Shown: piece after piece, positions 1 through 16,625 of the stretch
Numbering within the stretch: the first letter of the stretch is position 1
Layout of the letters: every line of letters starts with the position of its first letter
Source of the DNA: Byssovorax sp.
Lineage (GTDB): Bacteria > Myxococcota_A > Polyangia > Polyangiales > Polyangiaceae
Direction: 5' to 3'
NCBI GenBank assembly: GCA_025362495.1
Contig: JANYGI010000072.1
Span: forward strand, 1 to 33,888
DNA: 33,888 nucleotides
Made by a program: the position numbers and the translations under genes
The notes under the pieces: model-generated
The model's database searches: none
What the model was told of the DNA's origin: nothing
What the model saw: the letters and a program-made list of their open reading frames with translations, nothing else

Positions 1-738
1 AGGGCTGGTGCCGAGCTGCGTGGCGATGGTCTCTGTCCCGTACCAGGCGCTGTTCGTGTACCACTGGTGCCGGAGCTGGCTGAGCGAGTCGCGCCAGAAG
101 ACATCGATCCTGCCGGGACCCCAGGAGGTCGAGGCCGGATCCCCGACCGACATGCCGGCGAGGCTCGCAGGAGCGCTCCAGTTGGTCCCGTTCGTGGCGA
201 AGAGGTGCGTGAGCTGGTTGGCCGTGCTGCGCCAGAAGACGTCGAGTCGCCCAACCCCCCACGAAGACACCGAAGGGCCGCCGGCCAGGCCGCTCGCGAG
301 ATCCCCCTCCGACGACCAGGCCGAGCCATAGTCGGCGCGGGAGAGGTGCTTGAGGTGGCCGGCGCGCTGGTAGAAGACGTCGAGGCGACCGGCAAAATCC
401 CAGGACACGGCCGCAGGCGCGGAGTCGGTGACGACGCCCATGTCCGAGGCGCTGGTGCACCCGGTCTCGGCGTACTCGCAGTACTTCGTCATCAGGTGCG
501 AGTCCGACGTTCGCCGCCAGAAGAAGCGATAACGCCCGTTGCTGCCGACGATGGCGGGAGCCGCGCTCATGCTCTCGCCGAGGTCCCCCCACGGAGCCCA
601 GGTGTACGAGAGCGCGCTCGCAGCCTCCCCGAGGCGCTCGGGTGCGTCTTCGTGCGGCGGGGGCGCTTCGGGTAGCGCGCAAAAGGACGTGCCGAGCGCG
701 AGCCCGCGCGCCAGGATGGCTGCCAGATACCGGTTCAT
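1..738 (-). CDS. PLL-lectin-like beta-propeller exported protein (3' end cut by window edge)
   Basis: The frame is open from an ATG at 738 to the left edge (246 codons seen), so the C-terminus is missing. An AAGGAG ribosome site lies at 747-752, nine bases upstream, and fixes the start. The N-terminus has a signal-peptide-like stretch (MNRYLAAILARGLALGTSF) followed by Cys; the bases before that Cys are not a clean lipobox. From about residue 45, roughly 45-residue repeats carry the pattern S-W-x-x-G-R-[LI]-D-V-F-[WY], then a Q/H-L-x-H segment. This is characteristic of the PLL/DUF346 carbohydrate-binding beta-propeller family. At least three repeats are visible. Role is inferred as binding of sugars or surfaces outside the cell. 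The segment ERLGEAASAL between signal and propeller resembles a segment in two other exported proteins of the window. The gene follows the FG-GAP gene on the same strand but is separated from it by a strong hairpin. Confidence 0.8.
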   Translation of the reverse strand, partial: MNRYLAAILARGLALGTSFCALPEAPPPHEDAPERLGEAASALSYTWAPWGDLGESMSAAPAIVGSNGRYRFFWRRTSDSHLMTKYCEYAETGCTSASDMGVVTDSAPAAVSWDFAGRLDVFYQRAGHLKHLSRADYGSAWSSEGDLASGLAGGPSVSSWGVGRLDVFWRSTANQLTHLFATNGTNWSAPASLAGMSVGDPASTSWGPGRIDVFWRDSLSQLRHQWYTNSAWYGTETIATQLGTSP

Positions 739-772
739 CTCGTTCGCTCCTTGATTCAACCGTGAAGAGAGC

Positions 773-798
773 GAGGCCGCCTCCTTCGAGGCGGCCTC
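773..798 (-). terminator. strong hairpin, probable terminator of the FG-GAP gene
   Basis: Perfect 11-bp inverted repeat GAGGCCGCCTC / GAGGCGGCCTC with a CTTC tetraloop. It lies 77 bases past the stop of the minus-strand FG-GAP gene and 35 bases upstream of the PLL-like gene start. On the minus strand it is followed by a pyrimidine-rich GCTCTCTTC rather than a clean U-tract, so it is a likely but not textbook intrinsic terminator. Confidence 0.65.
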
Positions 799-874
799 GG
801 GCCACGTCATCGCCGTCGCCGGGAGCGCGGTTCGGACGGGATCGACCGAGGGCGCGCGGCGCGGTCACGGCACT

Positions 875-2536
875 TCACGGGGCGCCGTAGAAGACGTTGA
901 GCGATTCGGTCGCTGCTTCGGTGGGCATCGTGCTCGCCACCACGTCGGCCTTGCCATCCCCGTTGAAGTCGCCGGACACCAGGCCAAAGCCGAGGTAGTC
1001 CGCGTAGGTGCACTGACCCGGAATGCCCGCGGAGTCCCGATCCCAGAGCTGCCCTTGCGCCACGTACAGCGATCCCGCGCTGAGCCCGAACCTGGCGACG
1101 TTGATGGCTCCCTCGGCGAACCCGTTCGCCGTCACCACCTCACCGGGACAGCCGCTCGCGAGATCGTCCTTGCCGTCGCCGTCGAAGTCGCCCGCGGCCA
1201 GCGAGAAGCCGCACAGATCGTCCCCCTCCGCCGTTCCAGGCACGTTGGTGGTGTTCTGGTCGTAGAGCAGCGCAGCGCCGAGGACGCCGCCGGTCTGACG
1301 ATAAACGATCGCGCCGCCGGCCCGGGAGTTGCCGGCCACCGCAAGATACGGAACGCCTACTGCCAGATCGTCGTCGCCGTCGTGATCGAAGTCGCCCCGC
1401 GCCAGGGAGAATCCCATCCTCGCCGTCTGGAGCGGCAGGCCGGAGAAATCGTTCAGCTGCAGCACGTAATTACCAGCGTCGGTGATCCCGCTCGGGGACC
1501 CTTTCAGGATCTGCACGAGACCCACGCCGGTCGCGCCGACGGCCTCGTAGCCTTCGTCCGGCACGCCGATCGCCAGATCGTCGATGCCGTCGTGGTTGAA
1601 GTCGCCCGCGGCGAGCGAGGCCCCAAATTTATCGTAGGCCTCGGCGACGCCGAAAACCGAGCCGACGTTCTGATCCCAGAGCTGCGGAGCGGGCGCACCT
1701 GCGGTGTTGAGGCCGGTCGAGCGACCGTAGAGAATGGTGACGGCGCCGGCCCTGGCGGATTCGATGCTCTCGTCCGGCGTGCCGATGGCGAGGTCGTCGC
1801 ACGCGTGGCCATTCGAGCTGTCGTGGTTGAAGTTGCCGACCGCGAGCACCGCGCCGAAGTGGTCGCTGACCTCGGGGACGCCGGGAATGCCGGCGGAGCC
1901 CTGCCAGAAGAGCTGCCACTGGGTGCTCGCGAAGTTGGGCCCATAGAGGATGCTGACGCTGCCTGCCTCGGTGATGCTCTCGCCTCCCGGGAGGGGTAGG
2001 GAGGCCCGCGGCGTACCGACTGCGAGATCCGGGTGGCCATCGCAATTGAAGTCGCCGATGGCCAGCGACTCCCCGAACGAAGCGCTCGCCTGCAAGCCGA
2101 CCCCCGGCTCGTGAAGCTGCGTCACGTTGCCGGCCGACAGACCGCCGAACGACGCGCCCAGCACATTCTTCCCCCAGAAGATGTCGACCGCTCCAACGGC
2201 CGCGGGGTCACCGTCGCTGTTCTTGAGAGCACCGTAGTGCGCCATGGGGAGGCCGACCACGAGCTCCGCAGCGCCGTCGCCGTCGAGATCACCTGTCGCG
2301 GTGGCCAGGCCAAACCAGCCGAATCCGTTGCCGAAGTCCGGGGTGGTGAATCCAACCCCGAACGCCTGCGCGTGAGCCGAGCCGAGCAATGATTGCTGCG
2401 CCGTCGCGACGTTCTCGCCGGCGGCGCTCCCGATCGGGTCCCCGGCATCGGAAGGACCTCCGCTATCGAGCGCGCACCCCGTCACGCCGAGGAGCCCGAC
2501 GAGGATCATGATGGGAGAAAGAAGGTTGTTCTTCAC
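875..2536 (-). CDS. seven-repeat FG-GAP (integrin-alpha-like) beta-propeller lipoprotein
   Basis: A 553-residue protein. I take the GTG at 2536 (reads M-K-N-N-L-L) because it gives a compact lipoprotein signal ending in G-V-T-G-C (Cys21). The longer frame from a GTG at 2572 would put a poor, aromatic-rich stretch in front. Neither start has a convincing ribosome site. Seven FG-GAP units can be counted, each with F-G-x-x-L-A-x-G-D-F-[ND]-x-D-G-x-x-D-L-A-x-G-x-P. This is the number needed for a closed seven-bladed propeller. The D-x-[ND]-x-D-G loops are the usual calcium sites of this family. The third unit has an insertion ([11 protein letters not shown]). Between Cys21 and the first blade lies [12 protein letters not shown], related to a segment in the PLL-like and Gly-repeat proteins. 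Probable function is cell-surface adhesion or ligand binding; the ligand is unknown. Confidence 0.85.
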
Positions 2537-2866
2537 GAGGGTCGTATTCCAGAAGAGAGATTGAAAGCCCACGCGAACGGCGGTTCGCGCGGAAGCACAC
2601 GCCGTGTCGACGCGGTCCCGTCCACCTCACTTCGCAACGGCCATACCAGCGTCCGCACCCGGGGATCGCGCCGCGATCGAGAGGGAGGCGGCCCCTCGCG
2701 CGGCCGGCGCGCCCGCCGCGTGACAACCAGGCCTGTCAACCGCCGGTTGTCATCGGGCCGCGCGGGGGACGGGTGGCTCGGCACGATCGGTCGAAAATCC
2801 GCGGCTCCCGGGGGCCTCGGAACGTGTCCATTGACATCCGCACCGCGTGCCCGAATCCTCGGCCCA
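2537..2866. promoter_or_regulatory. divergent intergenic region with two inverted repeats
   Basis: This 330-base gap separates the minus-strand FG-GAP gene from the plus-strand FHA/sigma54 activator, so it must hold both promoters. It contains a 7-bp inverted repeat CGCGAAC/GTTCGCG with a 4-base spacer at 2572-2589. It also contains an 8-bp inverted repeat TGACAACC/GGTTGTCA at 2721-2752, whose 16-base spacer includes the palindrome CAGGCCTG and a third related octamer TGTCAACC (2734-2741). These are candidate operator sites, seen directly in the sequence; what binds them is unknown. No gene was found here. Confidence 0.45.
2831..2859 (+). promoter_or_regulatory. candidate sigma70-type promoter for a leaderless transcript
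   Basis: TTGACA at 2831-2836 (perfect -35 consensus), a 17-base spacer, then AATCCT at 2854-2859 (3 of 6 to TATAAT, keeping the A at position 2 and T at position 6). Transcription would be expected to start about 7 bases later, at 2866-2867, exactly on the A of the predicted ATG at 2867. That ATG has no Shine-Dalgarno sequence upstream, which fits leaderless initiation. The -10 is weak, so this remains a proposal. Confidence 0.4.
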
Positions 2867-7783: not shown

Positions 7784-9544
7784 ATGAAGAATGCGTCTAC
7801 GCTCGCAGCGCTGGTCATCGTGTCTCTGATCGTCGGCGTGCTCGGGTGCGCAGGTCCCGCGGAGCCTGGCACGGGAGGGAGCGGCGGAGCGCCGGCCCCG
7901 TCGTCCTCGTCGTCCTCCACTTCGGCATCCGCCACGACCTCCGCTACCGGCGGGAGCGGCGGCGCGATGTGCACCCCCGTCGACGACGGGAACCCGTGCA
8001 CCGACGACGTCTGCGAAAATGAGATCCCGGCTCACCACCCGACCGCGCCTGGCACTCTATGCTCCACCGGAGGCACCCAGTGCGACGGCCAGGGCACCTG
8101 CGCCGCGTGCCTCGCGCCTGCGGACTGCCCGGGGACAGACGACGTCTGCCAGATGCGCGCCTGCACCCAGGGCAAGTGCCTCGTGGACCACGCGCCCCAG
8201 GGCACCTCGTGCGACGATGGGGACGCCTGCACCGTGGGAGACATCTGCGACGCCGGCGCCTGCACGAGCGGTGTCGTGATCACCTGCGCCGGGCTCGATC
8301 AATGCCATGCCGTCGGCACCTGCGATCCGGCCACCGGGGTCTGCTCGACCCCCTCCCAGAGCAACGGCTCTCTGTGTAGCGACGGCGACGCGTGCACCCA
8401 GACCGATACCTGCGAGGGCGGCGCCTGTGTCGGCGGGAACCCCGTTGCCTGCGCCGCGGGCTTGAGCTGCTTCGCCGGAGCGTGCGCCGCGCCCGAGTGC
8501 ACCGGATCGCTCGGGCTGCCCGGCCCGCCGTCACCGCCGGTCGGCGACGGACCGACCTCGATCGCGACCGCGGATCTGAACGGTGACGGCACGCCGGACG
8601 TCGCCGTCGCCAACCTCTACGACGGCAACGTGAGCGTGCTCCTCGGCACGGGCCAGGGCACCTTCGCCCCCGCGGTCAACTACGCCACGGGCACGGGGCC
8701 CGCCGGGATCGCGGCGGCGGATCTCAACGGTGACGGCAAGCCCGATCTGGCAGTGACCAACGACGTCAGCAACACGGTGACGGTGCTCCTCAACCAGGGC
8801 AACGGCACCTTCGTCGCCGGGGGGAGCTACGCCGCGGGCGCGGCGCCGGTCGCCGTCGCGCTCGCGGACCTCAACGGCGACGGCAAGCCCGACCTCGCCG
8901 TGGCCAACAACGGCAGCGCCAACGTGAGCGTGCTCTTCGGCAATGGCAATGGCACCTTCGCCGCCAAGGTCAATCATGCGGCAGGCTCGGGCGCGTGCTC
9001 GGTCGCGGCGGGGGACCTCGACGGGGATGGCAAGCTCGACCTCGCCGTGACCGACCAGAACACCAACATGGTGAGCGTGCTGCTCAATCAGGGCAACGGC
9101 ACCTTCGCCGCTCCGGTAAGCTACGCGACAGGCTTGATCGCCCACTCGGTCGCAATGGCGGACCTCGACGGCGACGGCAAGCTCGACCTCGCCGTCGCCA
9201 ACCAGGGCACCATGAGCGCCAGCGTGCGCGTGCTCCTCAACCAGGGCAACGGCGCCTTCGCCGCCGCCGTCAACTACAAGGCGCGCGGCAACCCCCGCAC
9301 GGTCGCGGCGGCCGATCTGAACGGCGACGGCAAGCCCGACCTCCCCGTCCCGAACCGCGCCGGCGGCAGCGTGAACGTGCTGCTCAACCAGGGCAATGGC
9401 ACCTTCGCCCCTGCGGTCAATCATGCCGCGGGCGCGACCACCACCTCGATCGCGGCGGCGGACCTGAACGGCGACGGCGGGCCCGATCTCGCCATTACCG
9501 GGAGCAACGAGGTCAACGTGCTGCTCAATGTCTGCTTCCCGTAG
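7784..9544 (+). CDS. Cys-rich and seven-repeat FG-GAP/VCBS lipoprotein
   Basis: A 586-residue protein starting at an ATG preceded by a weak AAAAGG site. The lipoprotein signal ends V-L-G-C (Cys22), followed by a Gly/Ser/Thr/Ala tether. Residues of about 64-245 are Cys-rich, with repeated D-G-D-A-C-T-x-x-D-x-C-x-x-G-A-C motifs typical of myxobacterial disulfide-rich surface modules. From about residue 255 there are seven repeats of the form A-D-L-N-G-D-G-K-P-D-L-A-V-A-N followed by V-[ST]-V-L-L-N-Q-G-N-G-T-F, giving a predicted seven-bladed calcium-binding propeller. Probably an outer-membrane-anchored adhesion or binding protein. It follows the SUMF1 gene on the same strand after a 220-base gap, so it is likely a separate transcript. 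Confidence 0.88.
   Translation: MKNASTLAALVIVSLIVGVLGCAGPAEPGTGGSGGAPAPSSSSSSTSASATTSATGGSGGAMCTPVDDGNPCTDDVCENEIPAHHPTAPGTLCSTGGTQCDGQGTCAACLAPADCPGTDDVCQMRACTQGKCLVDHAPQGTSCDDGDACTVGDICDAGACTSGVVITCAGLDQCHAVGTCDPATGVCSTPSQSNGSLCSDGDACTQTDTCEGGACVGGNPVACAAGLSCFAGACAAPECTGSLGLPGPPSPPVGDGPTSIATADLNGDGTPDVAVANLYDGNVSVLLGTGQGTFAPAVNYATGTGPAGIAAADLNGDGKPDLAVTNDVSNTVTVLLNQGNGTFVAGGSYAAGAAPVAVALADLNGDGKPDLAVANNGSANVSVLFGNGNGTFAAKVNHAAGSGACSVAAGDLDGDGKLDLAVTDQNTNMVSVLLNQGNGTFAAPVSYATGLIAHSVAMADLDGDGKLDLAVANQGTMSASVRVLLNQGNGAFAAAVNYKARGNPRTVAAADLNGDGKPDLPVPNRAGGSVNVLLNQGNGTFAPAVNHAAGATTTSIAAADLNGDGGPDLAITGSNEVNVLLNVCFP
8550..9530 (+). repeat. seven in-frame FG-GAP coding repeats
   Basis: Seven DNA repeats encoding the blades of the FG-GAP lipoprotein, each near 135-145 bases, with the best-conserved core encoding A-D-L-N-G-D-G-K-P-D-L. 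Nucleotide identity between units is high enough (for example runs of the type GACCTCAACGGCGACGGCAA) to allow recombination or slippage to change blade number. Confidence 0.75.
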
Positions 9545-11514: not shown

Positions 11515-12023
11515 GGTCATGCTCCCGGGATCCTCGAGCGCGTCGACGGCGAGATCGTCGCGAGCGCAGCTCTCGGACCCGTCATGCCCCCCGTCTCCGT
11601 TCGTGATCATGGAAAGTGCTGCGGCCAAGGCGTCCCGCGAAAAAAGCCGATCGAGAAGCGCGCGGCCAGCCGTAGAAACCCCGGACAGGCTCCGCGCTCG
11701 GCGGGCTCAGCGCGCCGTCCAGAGCAGGCGGGCGTGTCACGGGCGTCTGGAAATGCCGGTCGAGTCTGCCCGGTGTGGGTCCGTCAGTGACAACCAGCCC
11801 GGCGCGGCTGCGCGGCGACTCGTCGCCTGAGCCAGTGAATACTCGAGCTACAGGATCGTTTCCCCGATACCACAGCTTTGCTGTGCGGGACGTGCCGACC
11901 CACCCGCGGTATGGCCGTTGCAATCCTGATTCGCGTCCTTGGCAATCACGACAGCATCGCTTCACAGGCACTCGCTGAAGAGGCGGGGAGCTCTCGTGAT
12001 TCTTGGATACTAAAGGGGGACCA
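11515..12023. promoter_or_regulatory. divergent intergenic region, no gene found
   Basis: About 510 bases between the propeller lipoprotein (minus) and the Gly-repeat lipoprotein (plus). It should contain promoters for both. A 6-bp inverted repeat GGCGAC/GTCGCC with a 2-base spacer sits at 11814-11827. The AT-richer stretch from about 11835 to 12010 is the likeliest promoter area for the plus-strand gene, with GATACT just ahead of the ribosome site, but no convincing -35 pair was found. Confidence 0.4.
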
Positions 12024-12452
12024 ATGAAGTCGATGAACCTCATCTGTGGTATGACGATTCTTCTGGCGGCCATGGCGACTCCGCTCCTCAGCGGGTGCGC
12101 GGCCGATGTGGACTCCGAGGATGCGACGGCCGATGAAGCGGTCGCGTCGAACGACGCGACGACGGCGCCGGACGCGGAGAACATCGGGACCAAGAGCGAC
12201 GCGCTCTTCGGCGGTTACGGCTGCGGCTGTGGCTGGGGCGGGGTCGGCGCCGGCGGGTTCGGCGGGTTCGGGCTCGGCGGCTGCGGGATCGGCGGGTTCG
12301 GGCTCGGCGGCTGCGGGATCGGCGGGTTCGGCCTCGGTGGCTGCGGGCTCGGCGGCTTCGGCCTCGGTGGCTGCGGGATCGGCGGGTTCGGACTCGGCGG
12401 CTGCGGGATCGGCGGGTTCGGCCTCGGTGGCTTCGGCTACGGCGGTTGCTGA
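12024..12452 (+). CDS. Gly/Phe/Cys decapeptide-repeat lipoprotein
   Basis: A 142-residue protein with a strong GGGGGA ribosome site at 12015-12020. The lipoprotein signal ends L-L-S-G-C (Cys25). Next comes an acidic, Ala/Asp/Thr-rich segment of about 35 residues ending in ENIGTKSDALFGG, then a Gly/Cys/Trp patch (Y-G-C-G-C-G-W-G-G). Residues 80-139 are six tandem ten-residue units with consensus GGFGLGGCGI; the last unit is GGFGLGGFGY, and the protein ends G-G-C. There is no charged residue in the repeat domain. The composition recalls FG-repeat, silk-like or glycine-rich antifreeze and matrix proteins, all of which are only analogies. Regular Cys spacing every ten residues could allow intermolecular disulfides or metal binding. 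I do not recognise a family. A hairpin follows the stop. Confidence 0.85.
   Translation: MKSMNLICGMTILLAAMATPLLSGCAADVDSEDATADEAVASNDATTAPDAENIGTKSDALFGGYGCGCGWGGVGAGGFGGFGLGGCGIGGFGLGGCGIGGFGLGGCGLGGFGLGGCGIGGFGLGGCGIGGFGLGGFGYGGC
12261..12440 (+). repeat. six 30-bp in-frame tandem repeats
   Basis: Six contiguous 30-base units start at 12261, 12291, 12321, 12351, 12381 and 12411. Units 1 and 2 are identical. The others differ mostly at third codon positions (GGG/GGC/GGA for Gly, GGC/GGT), with only one Ile/Leu change before the diverged last unit. This pattern suggests the protein sequence, not the DNA, is being kept constant. Confidence 0.95.
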
Positions 12453-14153: not shown

Positions 14154-16625
14154 ATGCTCAGCTTGTGGTTCGCGAGCGGGGAAGACTCCCTGTCTGTCCG
14201 GCAGTTCACGGTGCACGAGGGCGTGTCGTCGCTCTTCCAGGTCGACGTCGTGGCGCGGTCGCCGAGCGACGATGTCGATCTCGAGGCTCTCCTGGGGCGC
14301 CCGGCGAGCTTTCGCGTCCAGCGCGCGCTCGGCGAGGGAGCCGGCGCGCCGCGCACCTTCAACGGCATCTGCAGCGCCGCCCGGCAAACGCGGGTCGAGC
14401 GGAGCGGCCTCTCCACGTACGAGCTCCGCCTCGTGCCGCCGCTGTGGCTGCTGACGGAGCGACGGAATCACCGCGTCTTCCAGCACGCTTCGGTCCCCGA
14501 CATCGTCACGAAGCTCCTCGGCGAGTGGGGGATCGAGGCCGATTGGCACATCGACAAGGAGGCGTATCCCCGGCTCGACTACCGCGTTCAGCACGGCGAG
14601 AGCGACTTCGCGTTCCTGAGCCGCCTCCTCGAAGAGGCCGGCATCGCCTACACGCTCGACGCGGGGACGGCGCGCGAAGACGGCGGCTCGAAGGTGGCGC
14701 TCTTCGATCACCTCGCCTCGACGCCGCCGCGCGCGGGCGGGGCGATCCCTTACCAGGACAGCCCCAGCGCCGCTTCGGCGCGCGAGTACGTGACCGGCGT
14801 CCAGATCGCGCACCAGCTCCGGCCGGGCAAGCTCACGCTCCGAGGCTTCGATTTCCGGCGCAAGCTCGACGCTCCTCTCGTCGCGGTGGCCACGGCTCGG
14901 GCCGCGCGCGGGCCGACCGACGTCGAAGCGCGGCTCGAGCAGAGTGTCTATTCGCCCGGCGCGTTCTTCGCGGAGAAGCCCCCTCTGGAAGGCCCGCGGC
15001 GCGGTGAGAGCCCCGCGGCCGACGATCAGGGCATCTCCCGCGCCGACGAGAAGATCGGAAAGCAGCAGGCGGATCGCAGCCTCGCCGCCGCGCGGGCGGG
15101 GCGGCGTGGGGTCGAGTTCGCGACCAACTTGGTGGATCTCGCGCCGGGGACGGTGTTCTCGATCGGTGGACACACCCACGGCGCCCTCGCGTCGCATCAC
15201 GAGCTGCTGGTGACTCGACTCGAGATGTCCGGCGCTCACGACGGCGAGTGGACCATCGCCGGGAGCGCCGTCTTCACCGACGTGGCCTATCGGCCGCCGC
15301 GCACGACGCCGAAGCCGGTGGTACAAGGGGTGGAGAGCGCGGTCGTCGTCGGGCCGGCCGACGAGGAGATCCACACCGACGAGCTCGGCCGGGTGCGGGT
15401 GCAGTTTCCCTGGGATCACGAGGGCGATTTCGACGAGCACAGCTCGTGCTGGATCCGGGTGAGCCAGGGCTGGGCCGGCGCCGGCTATGGCATGCTCGCC
15501 CTGCCGCGCGTGGGCCAAGAGGTGGTGGTGGGCTTCTTCGGCGGCGATCCCGATCACCCGGTTATCGTCGGGCGGCTCTTCAATACCACCTCTCCGATCC
15601 CCAGCAAGCTGCCCGAGGAGAAGACGGCGACGACCTGGCGGAGCTCGAGCTCGCCGGGCGGTGAGGGCTGGAACGAGATCACCTTCGAGGACGCGCGGGG
15701 CCAGGAGCGGGTGTACATGCAGGCCGAGCGCGACCTGGAGAAGCTCGTCAAGGCCAACGAGTCCGCGAGCGTGGGTGGCAATCGCAGCCGGCAGGTCGCG
15801 GCGACCGAGACTGTCACCATCGGGCTCGCGCAGACGATCGCCGTCGGCGGCGGGCGTTCGGTGAGCGTCGGCGTCGACGACGAGACCACCGTCGGTCAGC
15901 GGTACGCGGTGAGCGTCGCCCCGGCGGCCGCGGAGGGCGGGAAACAGCTCCTTCCGACCGGCTTCGAGATGGTCAATCGCAAGATCACGCTCACCACGGG
16001 TGAGGCGACGATAACGCTGGAAGGGCCGAACATCACGCTCGACGCGGCCGCGAGCATCCTGCTCAACGCGGCGGCGAACATCACCATCAACGGGCGTGCG
16101 GACATCCACCTCGGCGGCGGGGCGAACGTGGTGATCAGGGCCCGCAACGGCGATCTCGTGGTGCAGGGCGGACCCAACGTGCTCATCAATCCGAGCGTGG
16201 CCGCCGAGCAGGATCCCTCGGTGATCCCGGTCGACCAGCCGCCCGGCGTCGAGATGGACGAGGACGTGATCGAGGCCGAGGACAGCGCGAGCTTCCAGCC
16301 CGACGAGCCCGAGTGGCTGAAGAGCCAGGTCGCGCCCGGAGGCAAGCTCGATCCGCTGCGCTGGGGCCCTGATCACGAGGACTTTGGTTACTTCCACCTC
16401 GGCGTGATCGCGGCTGCGGCGCGCATCCCGCTCGGCGTGATGATGCGGCAGCTCGGCAAGCAGCGCGTCGCGAGCCACGGCGCCAGCGTCGATCGGGGCG
16501 ATCCCGGCAATGGCCTCTTCGGCGGGAAGGCCCCGTATGGCAACGAGCCGCACCATCACGCGTTGATGGCCCGCGGTGTCCGCTACCACGCGAGCTACTA
16601 CACCTGGGGTGACCATGACGCGTGA
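14154..16625 (+). CDS. vgrG: VgrG spike with C-terminal toxin-44-like domain
   Basis: An 823-residue type VI secretion tip protein. Residues of about 1-640 form the VgrG/gp27-gp5 body: F-Q-V-D-V-V-A, the Y-E-L-R-L-V-P-P-L-W-L-L-T-E-R-R-N-H-R-V-F-Q motif, R-V-Q-H-G-E-S-D-F-A-F-L-S-R-L-L-E-E-A-G, and the OB-fold V-R-V-Q-F-P-W-D plus W-I-R-V-S-Q-G-W-A-G. A beta-helix follows (T-I-T-L-E-G-P-N-I-T-L-D-A-A-A). After an acidic linker, residues 720-823 form an extra domain with G-P-D-H-E-D-F-G-Y-F-H-L-G, I-P-L-G-V-M-M-R-Q-L-G and A-P-Y-G-N-E-P then G-V-R-Y-H. These features match the polymorphic toxin type 44 family. It is thus an evolved VgrG carrying its own effector. No other T6SS genes lie in the window. 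The downstream gene overlaps by 11 bases. Confidence 0.93.
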   Translation: MLSLWFASGEDSLSVRQFTVHEGVSSLFQVDVVARSPSDDVDLEALLGRPASFRVQRALGEGAGAPRTFNGICSAARQTRVERSGLSTYELRLVPPLWLLTERRNHRVFQHASVPDIVTKLLGEWGIEADWHIDKEAYPRLDYRVQHGESDFAFLSRLLEEAGIAYTLDAGTAREDGGSKVALFDHLASTPPRAGGAIPYQDSPSAASAREYVTGVQIAHQLRPGKLTLRGFDFRRKLDAPLVAVATARAARGPTDVEARLEQSVYSPGAFFAEKPPLEGPRRGESPAADDQGISRADEKIGKQQADRSLAAARAGRRGVEFATNLVDLAPGTVFSIGGHTHGALASHHELLVTRLEMSGAHDGEWTIAGSAVFTDVAYRPPRTTPKPVVQGVESAVVVGPADEEIHTDELGRVRVQFPWDHEGDFDEHSSCWIRVSQGWAGAGYGMLALPRVGQEVVVGFFGGDPDHPVIVGRLFNTTSPIPSKLPEEKTATTWRSSSSPGGEGWNEITFEDARGQERVYMQAERDLEKLVKANESASVGGNRSRQVAATETVTIGLAQTIAVGGGRSVSVGVDDETTVGQRYAVSVAPAAAEGGKQLLPTGFEMVNRKITLTTGEATITLEGPNITLDAAASILLNAAANITINGRADIHLGGGANVVIRARNGDLVVQGGPNVLINPSVAAEQDPSVIPVDQPPGVEMDEDVIEAEDSASFQPDEPEWLKSQVAPGGKLDPLRWGPDHEDFGYFHLGVIAAAARIPLGVMMRQLGKQRVASHGASVDRGDPGNGLFGGKAPYGNEPHHHALMARGVRYHASYYTWGDHDA

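Follow-up and report, generated by a model that had tools for sequence, protein, structure and literature searches.

A lipoprotein-type precursor with a glycine- and cysteine-rich repeat tail in Byssovorax sp., a candidate extracellular structural protein

The nearest described counterparts of the protein reported here are elastin-type polypeptides, which likewise consist of tandem XGGZG pentads (a hydrophobic residue, GG, a second hydrophobic residue and G) in uncharged, low-complexity chains and which form amyloid-like fibrils when the guest residues are Val or Leu (PMC5814424, PMC6915571). Among myxobacteria, matrix lipoproteins of Myxococcus xanthus such as FibA invite comparison by description, being likewise exported lipoproteins and found in the matrix, and a published study reports that Ala at +7 is conserved in these proteins and that 8 of the 12 inner-membrane lipoproteins of that species carry Lys at +2 (PMC3222651). 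The window that we analysed, a 33,888-nucleotide contig (C54) from the genome of the soil bacterium Byssovorax sp. (10.84 Mb in 240 contigs), encodes a protein whose tail carries Phe, Cys, Leu and Ile as guests, whereas the published fibrils have Val or Leu and not Phe or Cys. Unlike the elastin-type polypeptides, it is a bacterial exported precursor, and its assembly is putative. Elastin-type cross-linking uses Lys, and the window tail has Cys and no Lys, so we regard the protein as an apparent low-complexity secreted structural protein that works like elastin-type repeats rather than as a member of that family. DUF4266 (PF14086) is found in small lipoproteins of this order that also have a Gly-rich end with Cys (L079 and, by reading, L086, L089, L121 and L125), but in these a domain of 50 positions is conserved and the end is GGGGGCGCN, whereas the window protein has no Pfam match. 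It is likewise Gly-rich, not Pro-rich, and has no match to Extensin_1 of the extensin-like plant proteins (PF02095), to which two leader relatives on contig C28 of the same genome score weakly (E = 1.4e-4 and 1.7e-5), well short of the cut-off and likely through composition.

The reading frame at 12024..12452 (+ strand) is present and open and is a real gene, encoding a repeat lipoprotein precursor of 142 residues; a Shine-Dalgarno-like AAAGGGGGACC lies just 5' of it (12012..12022, +) and is identical at a paralog on contig C77 of the same genome. Residues 1-24 (12024..12095, +) form a hydrophobic signal peptide that ends in L-S-G before Cys25, completing an LLSGC lipobox whose Gly24 and Cys25 are invariant in 11 of 11 aligned leaders (alignment A1), and Cys25 is predicted to be lipidated. 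From this Cys the protein reads CAADVDS, with Ser at +7 where the matrix rule of M. xanthus has Ala; M. xanthus belongs to another family than Byssovorax sp. The linker or prosegment, residues 25-60 (12096..12203, +), contains 10 acidic residues and one basic residue, and from Leu61 onwards (12204..12449, +) runs a charge-free tail of 82 residues comprising 48 Gly, 9 Phe, 8 Leu, 8 Cys, 4 Ile, 2 Tyr and one each of Trp, Val and Ala, with CGCG close to its start, a C-terminal Gly-Gly-Cys (12441..12449, +) and no His, acidic residue or Lys. The LSGC lipobox, the linker and the tail bear out the lipoprotein-type precursor, acidic linker and neutral low-complexity Gly/Phe/Leu/Cys tail put forward in the preliminary description, and its statement that the protein resembles no family holds for Pfam, where 0 families matched at E<=1, DUF4266 included. 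NCBIfam gave sub-threshold matches only, PADLOC none at E<=0.1 and a plasmid collection none at 1e-5, and the best match among PDB sequences (E = 0.19) was taken as chance. An AlphaFold model of the protein has no fold (pLDDT 45.6, pTM 0.22) and is uninformative about self-assembly, which it neither supports nor excludes.

In the register of the preliminary description the tail contains six 30-base units (12261..12440, +). At 12244-12436 Tandem Repeats Finder returned 6.4 copies of period 30, with 91% matches, and below this period one of 15 bases, with 74% matches. The units had been described as exact GGFGLGGCGI repeats almost free of amino-acid change; exactness is correct for units 1, 2, 4 and 5 but not for unit 3, which has one replacement (Ile to Leu), or unit 6, which has two (Cys to Phe and Ile to Tyr). 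The ten-residue unit itself stands and can be refined, each decamer being two pentads of XGGZG pattern, GGFGL and GGCGI, with alternating guests. Using a script-cut tail of 90 residues that includes a few linker residues, we counted 15 XGGZG pentads, a number that none of 500 shuffles reached (mean 2.25), and 16 non-Gly identities at lag 10 against 2.1 (0 of 500); at lag 5 there were 3 against 2.2 (197 of 500), no excess, because the guest residues alternate between pentads. The proposed surplus of silent over replacement changes is seen in units 1-5, which differ from the consensus by four silent changes and one replacement, silent changes making up 25 of the 90 single changes possible (P = 0.023), but becomes unclear over all six units, with five silent changes and four replacements (P = 0.07), so that the pattern is weakly non-random and the silent excess only suggestive.

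Homologs of the protein exist both in its own genome and as leader relatives in the order. The C77 paralog has the residue of the window protein at 43 of the 60 leader positions aligned, and its tail, 103 residues long, has a rearranged GGFGLGGGCGG pattern, one Ser and no charge. Upstream of the two genes about 280 bases are similar (11745..12023, +, the low edge being approximate), with exact blocks in common and 77% identity in both of the final 150-column stretches of the alignment; when the two paralogs were compared with the other 18 upstream regions, only 11-base matches were common. An inverted repeat, CACAGC-TTT-GCTGTG (11871..11885), lies some 140 bases before the start codon, is exact in the window and has one mismatch before the C77 paralog, and is possibly a regulator site or a hairpin. 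As the mark of a regulon it was rejected: the genome has 8 sites with up to two mismatches against 5 for a reversed-pattern control, and sites that are exact or have one mismatch occur only before the two paralogs, the six others having two mismatches. Further lipoproteins with Gly-rich tails are encoded on contigs C81 and C12 of this genome. Two other kinds of tail were observed in it on leader-type lipoproteins: just downstream of the Gly-rich paralog (L037:7321-7857, on C77) a Pro/Val tail with VPVPVP runs that ends in GLYGFGC, with no Pfam match at 0.01, and on C28 (L117:804-1322 and L117:1706-2260) a tandem pair with PxY-rich tails and upstream blocks common to both.

A search of the family with the full-length protein gave matches at E<=0.1 in 74 of 108 genomes, many of the listed matches being low-complexity; 29 new loci from it were read, six were kept as a leader with a Gly-rich tail, and the remainder look like low-complexity or wrong-frame matches. 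With the leader profile (A1), 88 of the 183 genomes of the order match at E<=0.01; a cut-off of E<=1e-5 leaves 16, which all belong to one family, and these counts are lower bounds (at most 31 candidates scored per genome). One of the 16 (G048) was set aside because its match is a DUF4266 protein, and by reading the other 15 genomes of the 183, our own included and all in one family, hold leader relatives with Gly-rich tails. The genera concerned include Polyangium, to which four members of genus group g43 belong, along with a genome that we take to be Minicystis rosea (G066) and one in g47 that is presumably a Sorangium. Leader relatives carry differing Gly/aromatic/Cys tails; in G066 alone there are seven, whose tails span GGFGW pentads at one extreme and Gly/Tyr and Cys-rich types at the other. 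Leader agreement among five relatives in g43 covers 50-61 of about 61 positions, their tails have 71 to 99 residues, and thus the leader is stable while the tail turns over. Two of these five are flanked alike, by an acyltransferase gene on the upstream side and a DUF2169 gene on the downstream side, and a methionyl-tRNA synthetase gene lies farther upstream (neighbours identified by Pfam, the synthetase scanned at one of the two loci). A g43 genome (G089) also encodes a leader protein with the motif EALGVAEQEF, no Pfam match and a Pro/Val-rich tail (L104:1369-1857, -) resembling that of the C77 protein; tails of the Pro/Val type may therefore also be common to more than one genus.

Across the 24 Gly-rich tails tested, 14 have an XGGZG count that no more than 1 of 500 shuffles reached, while 10 failed at that level, and the number of Cys varied from 0 to 11. 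A Cys lies within the last four residues of 17 of 25 related proteins, the window protein among them, against a shuffled mean of 4.8 (maximum 11 in 2000 shuffles); here L069, cut by its contig end, was dropped, and L018 and L080 were added by hand for this count only. DUF4266-type proteins were left out of the pentad and Cys-number counts, the terminal-Cys count and the motif counts given below. At the level of the phylum, 9 of 377 genomes match at 1e-5, and the matches in the three that lie outside the order are lipoproteins with an acidic linker but no Gly tail. Scanning a collection of genome contigs with the window protein alone returned 312 stretches, none of them a relative, and a second scan with a Polyangium relative as query returned four loci. 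Literature searches on myxobacterial glycine-rich lipoproteins and propeptides, Sorangium glycine-rich repeats, the Polyangiaceae matrix and elastin-like bacterial lipoproteins gave nothing on the group among the matches listed. The window protein appears to be one of an undescribed group of proteins that have an export leader in common and low-complexity sequences that change fast.

The linkers of these leaders end near the pattern E-x-[VTIL]-G-x-x-x-[QDE]-[AG]-[LFI] (the regular expression actually used was somewhat wider), represented in the window protein by ENIGTKSDA/L at residues 52-61 (12177..12206, +), directly ahead of the tail, where the slash marks a putative cleavage before Leu61. 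The motif precedes differing parts, namely a Peptidase_M23 domain in L083 and, by reading, Gly-, Pro/Val- and Pro/Tyr-rich tails; the leader proteins L093, L110 and L118 have no Pfam match. Among leader proteins outside the training rows (L127, in which no lipobox Cys was found, is not counted) 15 of 44 have the motif, where 500 shuffles gave 0.8 on average and 5 at most, and 29 lack it; these counts are not independent because the search profile contains motif columns and several of the proteins are near relatives. As a general feature of lipoproteins it was ruled out: of 74 lipobox ORFs in a sample of 784,022 bases of the own genome, 3 have the motif and one of these is plausible, shuffling giving 0.9 on average and 4 at most, so that it marks a subset at most. 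The known Gly-rich member on C81 was sampled yet is not among these three, and the lipobox-ORF scan therefore misses members.

In active S1A proteases the mature chain starts at Ile16. We collected trypsin-type proteases with PF00089 and examined 50 loci (L135-L184), at which 11 S1A junctions were readable by eye. Two of the 11 fit the motif, both in trypsins of the own genome with TAGHC and GDSGGP (L166 and L167; Pfam trypsin E = 1.1e-17 and 2.7e-19), whose junctions EPERIGDDSQT/IKGG and DPEALGNGAQE/IKGG place Ile16 at motif position 10, where the window protein has Leu61. A third, in the order, is close (EVGSTSAA/IVGG), and the other eight do not fit. Taking this register as an independent hint, we infer cleavage before Leu61 that would free the tail, which favours a preproprotein with release. 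The lipid-anchored acidic stalk of the preliminary description accordingly keeps its acidic linker, but the permanence of the stalk is doubtful, the register with trypsin Ile16 suggesting a removable prosegment.

The window protein probably helps build material outside the cell. More specifically, and with confidence somewhat short of even, we propose that it is a preproprotein for extracellular material whose tail is released and assembles outside; processing, assembly and cross-linking of the tail are each predicted here. The signal peptide would export the precursor, Cys25 would be lipidated, and the acidic prosegment would tether the precursor to the membrane while keeping its neutral, aggregation-prone tail soluble. 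A protease would then cut ENIGTKSDA/L and set free the 82-residue uncharged tail, whose XGGZG pentads may self-associate into a beta-rich or coacervate-like material, fibril formation by XGGZG peptides with Val and Leu guests making self-association the natural guess. Since a five-residue repeat alternates faces, the exchange of Phe for Cys in alternate pentads would put the two on opposite faces of an extended strand with a ten-residue period, Phe and Leu on one face and Cys and Ile on the other, and the rows of Cys on one face could form intermolecular disulfides. The variation from 0 to 11 Cys among tails and the frequent terminal Cys fit such intermolecular cross-links better than a fixed fold or metal site. 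With composition rather than fold under selection, the sequence of the unit would be free to drift while the leader is retained. Analogies with matrix-type proteins had been drawn before and are supported by our results.

The proposed release competes with a possible though doubtful alternative, a permanent lipid-anchored surface brush in which the acidic linker is a stalk that displays the Gly/Cys tail on the outer membrane. The invariant Gly-Cys of the lipobox in 11 rows and the strongly acidic linker suit such a brush, as do the eight of 11 trypsin junctions without the motif and the Ala at +2 of the window protein in place of Lys, the residue found at that position in most M. xanthus inner-membrane lipoproteins (PMC3222651). 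The brush is harder to reconcile with the register between the linker-end motif and Ile16 of two own-genome trypsins, and with L083, in which the motif also stands ahead of a peptidase domain. A metal-binding or redox lipoprotein, the former raised in the preliminary description, would draw on regularly spaced Cys (8 in 82 residues, with CGCG near the tail start); the spread in Cys number among 24 related tails and the lack of His and acidic residues in the window tail argue against it, metal binding finds no specific support, and this is the reading to which we give least credence.

The FGE-sulfatase domain class is known to modify Cys, and a protein of this type is encoded 4.5 kb upstream of the gene; together with a Cys-rich tail that varies behind a retained leader, in several copies per genome, it would suit a small secreted effector, a predation or bacteriocin-like peptide made up of a leader and a core that varies. 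We hold this to be highly improbable, the tail being uncharged, PADLOC giving no match and NCBIfam only sub-threshold ones, and the eight window proteins scanned including, besides the FGE-sulfatase type, no known peptide-modification or immunity family. That Pfam scan identified a kinase, the FGE-sulfatase type, a TrmB-like protein (below cut-off), a PHB depolymerase and VgrG, with three proteins lacking a match. Little weighs for a short-lived slippage product or a decaying functionless gene, a highly improbable origin to which the identity of units 1 and 2, the weak silent excess and the representation of the genus by one genome would lend themselves. The preliminary description had tied that origin to a lack of homologs and random changes among units; homologs exist, the reading frame is kept in the paralog and relatives, the leader and upstream region are conserved, and five Polyangium-group relatives agree closely in the leader, two with the same neighbours. 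A paralog with a common leader and upstream DNA, and leader relatives in 15 of 183 genomes, thus indicate that the gene is not an isolated slippage product.

Several other genes of the window were noted in passing. The VgrG-type T6SS spike gene (14154-16625) lies near the repeat lipoprotein gene and two g43 relatives have a DUF2169 gene next to them, perhaps a coincidence. A gene at 875-2572 (-) has an 11-residue leader motif and FG-GAP repeats, another at 1-810 (-) has the leader motif PERLGEAASAL and no Pfam match, and a third (7784-9544) contains 147-base tandem repeats at 8557-9493 that are FG-GAP-type by eye.

A broader reading of the release model, which we offer as a speculation with the odds well against it, is that one lipid-anchored acidic prosegment, cut at ExVGxxSQA/L, delivers a kit of low-complexity tails in the Polyangiaceae (XGGZG/Cys, VPVP Pro/Val and PxY extensin-like, many ending in or near Cys), and that disulfides would cross-link the released tails into a composite wall or slime, the equivalent in bacteria of the cuticle or elastic fibre of animals. 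If our reading of the protein is right, bacteria would offer a natural source of repeat polymers that are elastin-like and can be cross-linked through Cys, and the processing motif would re-annotate a subset of Polyangiaceae secreted proteins. It would also provide a set of genes, open to testing, behind the protein component of the extracellular material of the Polyangiaceae.
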